A stretch of DNA of 38,665 nt from a virus. The position numbers and the translations under genes were made by a program. This document shows positions 30,220 through 36,766 of the stretch, piece after piece (the stretch's first letter is position 1; every line of letters begins with the position of its first letter). The notes beneath the pieces are model-generated. The model made no database searches, was not told where the DNA came from, and was given only the letters and a program-made list of their open reading frames with translations. The stretch spans positions 1-38,665 of IMG/VR virus record IMGVR_UViG_3300010155_000023; one strand, given 5' to 3'.

Positions 30220-30236
30220 TAAGGAGATTTTTGTCT

Positions 30237-30938
30237 ATGTCTTTGTCATCTATTTTAATTAAAGAAACACCAAAATATGAATTGGCCCTTCCGTCATCAA
30301 AAGAAAAGTTTAACTTCAGACCATTTCTAGTCAAGGAAGAGAAAATACTTTTAATATCCCAAGATGGTGGAAATTTACATGAAATGTATTCCGCCATAAG
30401 AGATGTGGTGGAATCGTGCGTAGAGGGAATAGAAAATGTTCAGGACATGCCTTTATTTGACGTTGAATATATTTTTATTCAATTACGAGCAAAGTCTGTA
30501 GGAGAAGTTGTTTTTCCCACATTTACATGTCCAGAAACGGGAGAGCACATTAGTACATCTATAAATTTAACATCAATTAATGTTAAATTTCCTAAAAATC
30601 ATACTGCTGATATAAAGATATCAGAAAATGTATATGTAAAAATGAAGTATCCAACTATTAGTATGATTCTAAATAACGAATCAGAAGAAGAAAATATTTA
30701 CGACACGATAGCATTTTGCATTGAATCTATTTCCAACAAAAAAGAATCCTTTAGCACAAACGATTTTTCCCCCGAAGAAATTAAAGAATTTGTAGATCAT
30801 TTAACAAATGAACAATTTACAAAATTAATGCAATTCCTAGAAACATCACCGAGAATTGAGCACGAAGAGAAATACACAACATCAGATGGTGTTGAAAGGA
30901 GGATAATGTTTAGTGGACTCGGAGATTTTTTTCTATAG
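30237..30938 (+). CDS. 26: Baseplate hub/assembly protein gp26-like (T4_baseplate family), 233 aa
   Basis: ATG 30237 is chosen over the TTG at 30231 because AAGGAG ends 10 bases before it; the TTG would leave only 4. Residues 10-45 (PKYELALPSSKEKFNFRPFLVKEEKILL) are the family signature: P-x-x-x-x-K-F-R-P-F-L-V-K-E-E-K-x-L-L. Later come LPLFDVEYIFIQLRAKSVGE-type 'DVEYIFIQLRAKSVGE' and a Cys pair in FTCPETGE. T4 gp26 is needed to make the hub; its genomic place before the tape-measure gene corresponds to that of lambda gpG-type tail chaperones. The gene ends on seven T residues (30926-30932) just before TAG, where a -1 shift would extend it (see the next entry). Confidence 0.9.
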   Translation: MSLSSILIKETPKYELALPSSKEKFNFRPFLVKEEKILLISQDGGNLHEMYSAIRDVVESCVEGIENVQDMPLFDVEYIFIQLRAKSVGEVVFPTFTCPETGEHISTSINLTSINVKFPKNHTADIKISENVYVKMKYPTISMILNNESEEENIYDTIAFCIESISNKKESFSTNDFSPEEIKEFVDHLTNEQFTKLMQFLETSPRIEHEEKYTTSDGVERRIMFSGLGDFFL

Positions 30939-31123
30939 CCCTCAGTCACATCTCTCTTTTTGATTATTTTACTTTAAATTTTCAGTTGATGCAACATCAC
31001 AAATATAACTTAACTGAATTAGAACAAATGATACCATGGGAAAGAGATATTTATGTGGCACTATTGAGGGAACATATAGATACCGAGAATAAGAAAATTC
31101 TAGAAAAGAACATTAGACAATAA
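30914..31123 (+). CDS. -1 frame extension of gp26 (frameshift product or small gp51-like hub-assembly peptide)
   Basis: The -1 frame opens after a stop at 30911-30913 and runs to TAA 31121-31123. A slip on T_TTT_TTT (30926-30932) would replace the last residue of gp26 with 63 new residues, including LSHISLFDYFTLNFQL, YNLTELEQMIPWERDIYV and a charged helix LLREHIDTENKKIL. The amphipathic 'L-T-E-x-E-x-M-x-P-W-E-R-x-I-Y' segment looks like a conserved hub-assembly C-terminus. The only in-frame ATG (30989) has no Shine-Dalgarno and would give 44 residues. The only window where both frames are open upstream of the gp26 stop is 30914-30935, exactly over the slippery run. I infer programmed frameshifting; internal initiation remains possible. 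Confidence 0.65.
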   Translation, partial: WTRRFFSIALSHISLFDYFTLNFQLMQHHKYNLTELEQMIPWERDIYVALLREHIDTENKKILEKNIRQ

Positions 31124-31134
31124 ACGAGAAAAAT

Positions 31135-32280
31135 ATGAAAGAAAAACCAAACAAAAGAAATCTACTACTAGACGCATTGGATATTCCACAAGAAAAAAAT
31201 AAATCTGATTCTCCACAGATACATAAGGACGATTCAAGAAATTATGATATTCCAAAGGCGGAAAAGGAAATTCCACCAGAAGAAAAACCAAAGAATGAAA
31301 AATCAGTAAAAGAACCAGCAATAAACATTTCTGATCTTAGCGATAAATTGTCTAAAATTTTAAAACTCTTTGTGAACAAAGTTAATAATAAAACAACAAA
31401 CAAATCTCAAATACATGAAAACACAACGTTAAATAAAAAGATACAAAACTATTATCACACCAACAGTCCGAGTATTTTCATCCACGAAAACAACAAACAG
31501 GCTCCCATTAATATAGAAACAGAAAATAAAATAAACTTCAATAGTGTTTTAAATAATAATCGAAAAGATGATGTAAATGCACACACAACAACTAATGATA
31601 TAAATTTCATTGAAACAAAAAACGATTTAAAAGATATTCGTATTACTGATGTCGATAACACAACACACACAACAGATGCAACAGATAACACAAACAAGAA
31701 TATATTCAATGAAGAAAAATACACAACAGACACCACAAACAAGAACACGTTTAACGAAGATCACAACTACAATGTAAATTCAGCCAATGTAAAAAACAAC
31801 AATAGAAGTATATTCAATAAAAGAAACAAAAAAATCAATATGGTGAAGTTTCTCAGCAAGAATAATTCATCATATGAAATTTTACCAGGATTAGAAGATG
31901 GTGGAATCGTACAGAAACCAACTAAAGTTGTTGTTGGGGAAAGCGGACCCGAAGCAATAATTCCACTTGATGAGATAAACACCAATAGCACAATAAAAAG
32001 CAACATTAAAATTGAAAAGGTGCATGAGACATTTTTAAAGAAAACAATAGAATTAGTGCATCAAAACACAGCATTAAAAATGGCCCAGCAAGGCACAATG
32101 TCTGGGTTCGAAAATGTACCAACTAGCGAAAACCAGTTGTCGCCGGGTATGAGTATGCCAATTCCAACACAACCTTCGCCGGGGGGTGGAGCATCAAGTT
32201 CATCTGCGGGAATAAATTCTCTGACTCTTAGCGTACTCATGAAAACTTCTTTGCCATCTTGGAGAAGTAAAATAGGATAA
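31135..32280 (+). CDS. Tape-measure-like tail protein, 381 aa
   Basis: The N-terminal 110 residues are Lys/Glu/Pro-rich, with an amphipathic helix (ISDLSDKLSKILKLFVNKV). Residues about 110-240 are low-complexity Asn/Thr/Lys sequence with loosely repeated NKNIFNEEKYTTDTTN / NKNTFNEDHNYN blocks. Residues about 255-285 read LEDGGIVQKPTKVVVGESG followed by PEAIIPLDEI, a motif (GG-x-x-x-x-P-T-x-x-x-x-G-E-x-G-P-E-A-x-I-P-L) typical of the C-terminal part of phage tape-measure proteins. The position directly after a gp26/frameshift gene also fits. At 381 residues it is short and mostly non-helical, so it might be a tape-associated hub protein rather than the full ruler. A strong terminator follows. 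Confidence 0.75.
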   Translation: MKEKPNKRNLLLDALDIPQEKNKSDSPQIHKDDSRNYDIPKAEKEIPPEEKPKNEKSVKEPAINISDLSDKLSKILKLFVNKVNNKTTNKSQIHENTTLNKKIQNYYHTNSPSIFIHENNKQAPINIETENKINFNSVLNNNRKDDVNAHTTTNDINFIETKNDLKDIRITDVDNTTHTTDATDNTNKNIFNEEKYTTDTTNKNTFNEDHNYNVNSANVKNNNRSIFNKRNKKINMVKFLSKNNSSYEILPGLEDGGIVQKPTKVVVGESGPEAIIPLDEINTNSTIKSNIKIEKVHETFLKKTIELVHQNTALKMAQQGTMSGFENVPTSENQLSPGMSMPIPTQPSPGGGASSSSAGINSLTLSVLMKTSLPSWRSKIG

Positions 32281-34939: not shown

Positions 34940-36766
34940 ATGCAAAACAATAGTAGAAAAAACTACAGGAAACGGAAGCCAAAAAACAAAATTCTCACAG
35001 AAGAGAAATATGAATTAGTTGGATCCAATATTTTATTAAAATCCTGTGTGCAGTTTTTAGACTCAGTAGATGATTATTCTGCTCAAACATTCAAGTTGCA
35101 AACTACTCCTAGTATATCTTTGTATGATAACGGAAATAAAATTATAATAGATTATAGTCATTCAAAAAATAAAGATGATTTAGAAAATATTAAGAAAATC
35201 TTTAACATCAATATTCAAGATGAGTTTACCATAACAGATGCATATTGGGAATGTGAAGAAGCAGATTCTATAAATGCAAATTTCTCTGGAACATTTAGTT
35301 TTAACGGACTAGAAAATGATAATATTATTATTGCTACGCCCAAAACGACAATAACAACATCAGATGGTGTTGTCCGCTACAGCCCAACTTTTTTTGATGA
35401 AATTCCACAAATAAAAATATCTTCTGGTTCTTCTACAAAGAAGATTTCAATTATTAAAAATATTTTAGGATTTCAGAGTGAAAAATCTTTCAGAAATATG
35501 GGAGTAAATCATCGAGAGAAGAACATATATGAGATTGAAATCATAGGTTCCAATTCAAATACTTCGAAGTATAAAATACATGAATATAAAATTGCGGTAG
35601 ATGGCTCCGAAGAATTAATTTTAACAGATCAAATAACGGAAGAAATAACAACCACAGATGGTTACTTTCTGATCAACATTTATGTTAAATTAAAAAACAA
35701 AAAGAAAATGAAAACACTAACATCCACAAGAATGCCAGGGGAAGGTTCGTGTTTTAGTTCATTATTACCAGATGATTGCTTTTATTCAATTGAAGAAGTT
35801 TGCAGAAATATACAAGGGGAATGGTATGCAGACGGAAATTGTAAAAAGAAGTCCAACATAATAGAGCAGGCAGAAACATCTCCATTATCCAATCAAATTA
35901 GAAATACAAATAACGCTATTGATAAATTGGTTCAAACATTATCGTTTACTGGAAATATAGCAGGCGGAAATGTTGTGCGACGGGAGCCTTTTAATATATC
36001 CGGCTTTTATCCTCTATATTCATCTAAGGAATCTTCTGACGCTTCCAGTCCTAACAATAGTGGTTCCATGCAACACATAATTCATGGAAAGGTTTATTAT
36101 ATGCCAAACGGTTTGAAATCTGGCGTTACTCAATTCCACGGAGAATATAAACCCCTGTCTTCCACAACTACCAGAAGCATGATGCAATCCACAGGATCCA
36201 CAGGATGTACAGGTCCACCCGCTACTGGGGGCACTACAGAAGAGCAAATGAAATGCTGCGAGTGTCTTTTGTATTCTGAGGCAGGTGGAGCAGATATGAC
36301 AAATCTAACGCAAGGTGATCCAAATACAACTGATCCTTGTATGTGGTGGACACTATGGGTAATGTACAACAGAAGAAAGGATCCAGTTCCTGGAGGAGCA
36401 ATACCAGGCAACGCAGAAATAACAAGTTGTGCCCAGGCAAATACACCAGCATTTTCCGGTGGTTGGAATAGTGAAAGATTTAAAAATTGTTATTGTGATG
36501 AAAGAAAGAAAAGAACATCTAAAGCCGAACAAAAACGAATGAAAAAGGCTAGTGAACTTTGCAGAAAAATAGGAATCAATAATTATAAACCCCACATTGA
36601 TCCTACTGGTGGGGCAAATTACTTCTTTAGATGTGATTCGGTGCCCGACTGGATGCAATGTAATATAGATTCTGGTGTTTGCAGCAAAGTAACGGGACCG
36701 GCGGGATGTAACCACTGTTTTTATAAGTGTAATTCGATTCCTCGACCATGCCCACCCGATGTGTGA
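34940..36766 (+). CDS. Virion-type protein with a Cys-rich C-terminal half, 608 aa
   Basis: It starts 6 bases after the stop of the preceding gene with no visible RBS, so translation is probably coupled. The N-terminus is very basic (SRKNYRKRKPKNK). About 20-250 is a beta-rich region with no recognised family. About 268-300 resembles one degenerate Cys-rich unit (GSCFSSLLPDDCFYSIEE ... EWYADGNC). From 400 there are TGSTGCTGPPATGG, a CCEC motif, Trp-rich sequence and more Cys pairs (NCYCDERKK, CNHCFYKCNS) at the end. Pairing with the 434-residue beta protein suggests a two-gene structural module. The multiple CxxC and CxC motifs could bind metal or form disulphides. Confidence 0.72.
   Translation: MQNNSRKNYRKRKPKNKILTEEKYELVGSNILLKSCVQFLDSVDDYSAQTFKLQTTPSISLYDNGNKIIIDYSHSKNKDDLENIKKIFNINIQDEFTITDAYWECEEADSINANFSGTFSFNGLENDNIIIATPKTTITTSDGVVRYSPTFFDEIPQIKISSGSSTKKISIIKNILGFQSEKSFRNMGVNHREKNIYEIEIIGSNSNTSKYKIHEYKIAVDGSEELILTDQITEEITTTDGYFLINIYVKLKNKKKMKTLTSTRMPGEGSCFSSLLPDDCFYSIEEVCRNIQGEWYADGNCKKKSNIIEQAETSPLSNQIRNTNNAIDKLVQTLSFTGNIAGGNVVRREPFNISGFYPLYSSKESSDASSPNNSGSMQHIIHGKVYYMPNGLKSGVTQFHGEYKPLSSTTTRSMMQSTGSTGCTGPPATGGTTEEQMKCCECLLYSEAGGADMTNLTQGDPNTTDPCMWWTLWVMYNRRKDPVPGGAIPGNAEITSCAQANTPAFSGGWNSERFKNCYCDERKKRTSKAEQKRMKKASELCRKIGINNYKPHIDPTGGANYFFRCDSVPDWMQCNIDSGVCSKVTGPAGCNHCFYKCNSIPRPCPPDV

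Follow-up and report, generated by a model that had tools for sequence, protein, structure and literature searches.

Near its end, the gp26 gene of the tail locus studied here carries a run of seven T, and an open reading frame shifted by one base (-1) continues past the gp26 stop codon. The question raised by this locus is whether the -1 frame is a separate small gene or is joined to gp26 by a ribosomal frameshift, so that one gene gives two proteins. The window, by which we mean the whole stretch of DNA that was analyzed, is a virus record of 38,665 bases with 36% GC that carries a T4-like tail locus. The features of the locus are collected in Table 1. The 0-frame codons at the end of gp26 are GGA GAT TTT TTT CTA TAG, and the heptamer T_TTT_TTT therefore lies in register. 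The -1 frame stays open over 30914-31123, and the residues read after a slip would be encoded by 30932-31120, with a stop codon at 31121-31123. The predicted fusion, with the junction residues ...GLGDFFSIALSH..., would be 295 aa long (232 + 63), compared with 233 aa for gp26 alone. A first-pass annotation had proposed a programmed -1 frameshift at this place, based on the in-register T run, a 22-base stretch open in both frames that holds the run, an addition of 63 residues, and an internal -1-frame ATG lacking a ribosome-binding site. The heptamer proved to be placed correctly, base for base, recomputation gave the same dual-open stretch and the same 63 residues, and no Shine-Dalgarno (SD) pairing was found at the TTG or the ATG that could start the -1 frame. 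In the other large ORFs of the window, an in-register T_TTT_TT[TCA] run was found once in 10,162 codon positions, so that about 0.0005 such runs would be expected by chance in the 22-nt overlap. The only other run of this kind in the large ORFs lies at about base 450 of the ORF 34940-36766.

Table 1. Features at the gp26 junction and in the neighboring gene (positions are those of the window)
Feature	Position	Strand	Basis or remark
Shine-Dalgarno AAGGAG of gp26	30221..30226	+	anti-SD duplex -7.7 kcal/mol; 9 nt spacer to ATG 30237
gp26 / TAC-N, 0-frame product, 233 aa	30237..30938	+	PF12322, PHROG 150, structure model
AGGAGG (30897-30902), ATA, in-frame ATG 30906 within gp26	30897..30908	+	anti-SD duplex -10.0 kcal/mol
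Dual-open stretch (0 and -1 frames), 22 nt	30914..30935	+	computed
Slippery heptamer T_TTT_TTT	30926..30932	+	sequence, register; kept in relatives
gp51-type TAC-C extension, -1 frame, 63 aa + stop	30932..31123	+	PHROG 634, PHROG 150, conserved columns
gp26 0-frame stop TAG	30936..30938	+	one sense codon (CTA) past the heptamer
Earliest candidate -1-frame starts, TTG 30986 / ATG 30989	30986..30991	+	anti-SD duplex +3.0 / +1.6 kcal/mol
Next gene, 381 aa, Asn-rich, motif GGIVQKPTKVVVGESGPEAIIPL	31135..32280	+	candidate tape measure protein or part

The two parts of the predicted fusion were compared with protein family profiles. The gp26 protein matched the Pfam family PF12322 (T4_baseplate) with E 5.7e-58 and PHROG 150 with E 3.2e-60, the latter over profile positions 5-232. 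The 63-aa extension matched PHROG 634 (gp51, 'baseplate hub assembly catalyst') with E 8.6e-25 over profile positions 58-116 of 121, and it also matched positions 241-278 of the 282 positions of PHROG 150. Since PHROG 150 spans gp26 in its first 232 positions and then the extension, this profile already holds fused proteins. The first-pass annotation had called a segment of the extension conserved-looking; the conservation is real, but the segment belongs to a known family, that of gp51. T4 gp51, which is a single ORF, matched PHROG 150 over residues 3-248 and PHROG 634 over residues 147-246. Judged by these profile matches, T4 gp51 has the architecture of the frameshift product predicted here, and the counterpart of the short form is T4 gp26.

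The same junction was then compared across related phages, as the first-pass annotation had suggested. By tblastn, relatives of gp26 turned up in 923 phage records. The junctions of named records and close contigs were inspected first, then those of 80 further IMG/VR loci, and the core set comprised 96 loci, 86 of which were non-redundant. In all 86, a set that excludes loci known beforehand to differ (L019, L020, L023, L025, and L026), an in-register T_TTT_TT followed by C (74 loci), T (7), or A (5) was present near the end of gp26, and the gp51 extension was in frame -1 to gp26. The commonest distance of the heptamer from the stop, exactly one codon, was found in 75 of the 86. S-PM2, P-SSM2, S-RS29, and KVP40 have gp51 in frame -1 to gp26 with T_TTT_TTC just ahead of the stop. 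The codons of the site were also constrained: at the first Phe codon TTT was used in 86/86 relatives, compared with 71% for the other Phe codons of these genes, and at the second TTC was used in 74/81, compared with 29%, counts to which, like those for conservation, we attach no p-value, as the relatives share descent and are not statistically independent. The bias at the second Phe codon can be due in part to the overlapping -1 codon CGN (Arg), a constraint which in turn implies that the -1 frame is read. Among the loci outside the core set, the heptamer of L019, T_TTT_TTA, precedes the stop by about 11 codons, and in L023 (Karamvirus) gp26 and gp51 are separate, as in T4. The distant loci L025 and L026 (Ackermannviridae) and L020 (Vibrio phage D506) have a -1 gp51-like extension without a canonical X_XXY_YYZ heptamer, and it is possible that they use another joining route or a weaker slip site.

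These data bear on two explanations that do not involve the ribosome. Homopolymers are prone to sequencing and assembly errors, and the gp51 of T4 has a similar make-up in one unbroken ORF, so an error in the T run could have split what is truly one continuous gp26-gp51 ORF. However, the same -1 relation recurs in every core relative, in sequences drawn from isolate genomes as well as numerous assemblies, and in two other metagenome contigs (L001 and L002) that encode a gp26 protein 100% identical to that of the window and both have the seven-T junction; an error of this kind is almost inconceivable. RNA polymerase could also slip on the T run and produce mRNAs with gp26 and gp51 in one frame. 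Homopolymer slippage is known from other systems, and the window does have seven consecutive T, but 74 of the 86 relatives have only six T and then C, 5 have six T and then A, and runs of six are poor substrates for polymerase slippage. In addition, the exact T_TTT_TTC register, which only decoding needs, has been kept, and many relatives carry two stimulators of translational shifts, an SD-like element and a hairpin. We consider polymerase slippage extremely unlikely.

A third explanation concerns the start of the gp51 segment, which might be a separate short gene with an independent start, or be translated by termination and reinitiation downstream of the gp26 stop. In most of the GenBank records examined, gp51 is listed as a CDS in its own right, about 45-57 aa long; an ATG overlaps the gp26 stop or lies near it in KVP40 and several others, and in 37 of the 86 relatives the fourth extension codon is an ATG. 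Against this, 43/86 relatives have no ATG among the first nine extension codons, and 34/86 have no ATG, GTG, or TTG there. The -1-frame starts of the window, at 30986 and 30989, lack an SD sequence, and a protein started there would lose 18 residues, including conserved columns: the extension positions L9 (77/85 relatives), Y12 (72/85), N16 (76/85), and F17 (84/85) are all kept upstream of the first start of the window. The GGAGG of relatives, which stands some 10 nt ahead of the slip site, is too distant from the ATG for initiation, and a separate gene leaves the kept T run and its codons unexplained. Because no usable start precedes the conserved -1 residues in the window, and 34/86 relatives lack any start in the first nine extension codons, a gp26-gp51 fusion is favored, and a separate gp51 gene seems to us very unlikely.

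The structure of gp26 was modeled with AlphaFold2 from 38 aligned sequences (pLDDT 93). The best solved match given by VIA-align was 2ob9, the HK97 tail assembly chaperone (TAC), with Z 8.2 and an rmsd of 4.3 over 87 residues. It was followed by 3fgx (RBSTP2171, Z 7.7) and 3klu (YqbN, Z 7.3), which we take to be TAC relatives, while the fourth match reached only Z 3.8. The three top matches of VIA-align all fall in gp26 residues 1-97. Three such matches well above the rest support a TAC fold, though a Z near 8 on its own is moderate. A Foldseek search of the gp26 model against the PDB gave no significant match, and comparison of the gp26 sequence profile with PDB chains gave nothing convincing. 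The model thus supports a predicted tail assembly chaperone fold for the N-terminal domain of gp26. T4 gp51 is required, yet it is absent from the particle (PMC3004832).

gp26 with its -1 extension is, on this evidence, very probably one gene of a marine T4-like phage that produces two tail assembly chaperone isoforms by -1 frameshifting. This reading is drawn from homology, frame relation, the conserved heptamer, codon constraint, and the predicted chaperone-like fold. A TAC-N/TAC-NC pair of the lambda gpG/gpGT type is indicated by the homology to gp51, by the heptamer and frame kept in 86/86 relatives, and by the codon constraint; the -1 residues kept upstream of the starts, the fusion of both parts in the single ORF of T4 gp51, and the chaperone fold point to the same pair. 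Most ribosomes would end at TAG 30936 and give the short form, gp26 (TAC-N). A minority would slip back by one base while the Phe-tRNAs are on the TTT TTT of 30926-30932; reading past the stop, they would append the 63 residues of the gp51 segment (TAC-C), which gives the long form, TAC-NC. If the division of labor is that of lambda gpG/gpGT, the tape measure protein would be coated by the short form, and tail tube subunits would be recruited by the long form. That the shift takes place in this phage, how efficient it is, and that the products act as chaperones are inferences.

We also analyzed the elements around the slip site. GGAGG was present at exactly -15 to -11 from the heptamer, 10 nt upstream, in 38/86 relatives. 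Where a Glu-Gly pair stands at this position, the Glu codon was GAG in 50 of 56 cases, against 28% elsewhere, and the relatives paired more strongly with the anti-SD at spacers of 7-13 nt than synonymous-codon controls did (t about -5 to -11). For -1 shifts, a review gives an SD spacing of 9-14 nt (PMC5009743). Downstream folds in the relatives were also stronger than in synonymous controls, with a mean z of -2.3 and p <= 0.01 in 32/85. An 11-bp stem lies about 5 nt past the heptamer, in the -1-frame coding sequence, in L013, L056, L061, L102, and about 24 others. Covariation was examined in a subset of 28 relatives picked for having the hairpin; there, 92% of stem cells were paired, a percentage inflated by this choice, against 28-45% in slid controls, and 13 stem cells were changed on both sides, a count less affected by the choice, against 1.9 +/- 1.3 in shuffles. 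The presence of such stimulators, which resemble those of dnaX, in about half of the relatives is a detail beyond the published principle and is possibly new.

The slip site of the window differs from these relatives. No SD-like element was found at 9-14 nt upstream of it, the best duplex at 8-14 nt upstream being -2.4 kcal/mol, and no stable RNA structure was found downstream (fold z about -0.5 to -0.9). Stimulators are helpful but not obligatory for programmed -1 frameshifting, and their absence does not disqualify the site. The strongest SD-like site near the junction is the AGGAGG at 30897-30902, which consists of tandem AGG Arg codons. It lies 23 nt upstream, a distance too great for a dnaX-type stimulator; together with ATG 30906 it is possibly an internal start or a pause site. 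We lean towards two forms of the gp26/gp51 frameshift in T4-like marine phages, namely a dnaX-like cassette in many cyanophage relatives, consisting of GGAGG 10 nt upstream, T_TTT_TTC, and a covarying hairpin about 5 nt downstream, and a bare run in other lineages, such as that of the window. If this is true, lineages would have acquired or shed the stimulators and yet kept the frameshift, and T4 would have exchanged the frameshift for two genes.

The gene downstream of the junction was examined as the candidate tape measure gene. Its product gave no convincing family match in PHROG or Pfam, while its counterpart in L003 had weak matches to tape-measure PHROGs (E 9e-4 and 3e-3). The product of the window carries GGIV..PT..VGE.GPEAIIPL, which we take to be typical of tape measure C-termini. 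Its 381 aa are short for a T4-like tape measure protein. The name 'tape-measure-like' for this gene is reasonable but not proven. The first-pass annotation had seen in this locus the logic of lambda gpG/gpGT, now in a T4-like tail locus. Its main proposal, the programmed -1 frameshift at the end of gp26, is the best reading of the gp51 homology, the relatives, the codons, and the fold, and the pair of a short and a long chaperone is supported, with the tape-measure label of the next gene weakly supported. The locus is indeed T4-like, but the logic is not new there: Vladimirov, Gautam & Davidson 2022 (Virology 566:9-15), according to papers that cite it, identified the TAC genes of T4-like phages, and the phage Adele paper (PMC12846349) refers to it in connection with poly-T -1 signals of the TAC-N genes in such phages. 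As far as such citing papers convey it, the principle of the frameshift in T4-like phages has therefore been published. PRFect reports that some T4-like phages have a short gene and a fused long gene in place of frameshifting, and a 2016 review describes G-T frameshifting as widespread in long-tailed phages 'except T4'. A literature search for gp26, gp51, and frameshift matched only phages that reuse those gene numbers.

The examined records of the marine group either give gp51 as a small separate gene whose start is doubtful or leave it out. In Synechococcus phage S-WAM2, a gp51 segment at 2714-2893, in frame -1, is unannotated in the record. If gp51 forms the C-terminal end of a protein made by frameshifting, as the evidence indicates, many annotations probably need correction. 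The cassette-aided slip site, the bare slip site, and the two genes of T4 would form a natural series for studying how evolution maintains an isoform ratio.

Compared with known systems, the cassette of many relatives is like that of E. coli dnaX in mechanism only, with an SD-like element about 10 nt upstream, an X_XXY_YYZ heptamer, and a stem-loop. The window has only the heptamer of these, and its shift would yield a longer product, whereas that of dnaX yields a shorter one. In phage Adele and the Vandenendeviridae/Andersonviridae, a -1 shift at poly-T (GTTTTT) lies at the end of TAC-N, as in the window, according to PMC12846349; these are other phage families. T4 gp26 and gp51 belong to the same families as the locus of the window (PF12322/PHROG 150 and PHROG 634), but in T4 they are two separate genes on opposite strands, whereas the window and its cyanophage relatives have one locus with a probable frameshift, and the FF region of T4 gp26 reads GAG TTC TTT, which is not slippery, in place of T_TTT_TTT. 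The Kyanoviridae (S-PM2, P-SSM2, S-RS29, and S-WAM2), whose gp26 is about 33-40% identical to that of the window, have the same junction, heptamer register, and frame relation, and share with it the extension pattern FFRI...LE.YY..NF.LMQHHKYSL.E.E.M.PWER; they mostly have T_TTT_TTC, many with GGAGG 10 nt upstream and a downstream hairpin, whereas the window has neither element. The window differs from lambda gpG/gpGT in its slippery sequence, its 233-aa first product, and its contractile T4-like tail, and no sequence similarity between the two was detected. It would share with lambda the short and long isoforms, a slip shortly before the first ORF ends, the HK97-type chaperone fold predicted for the N-terminal domain, and possibly, if the putative tape measure gene of the window is one, a position upstream of that gene.
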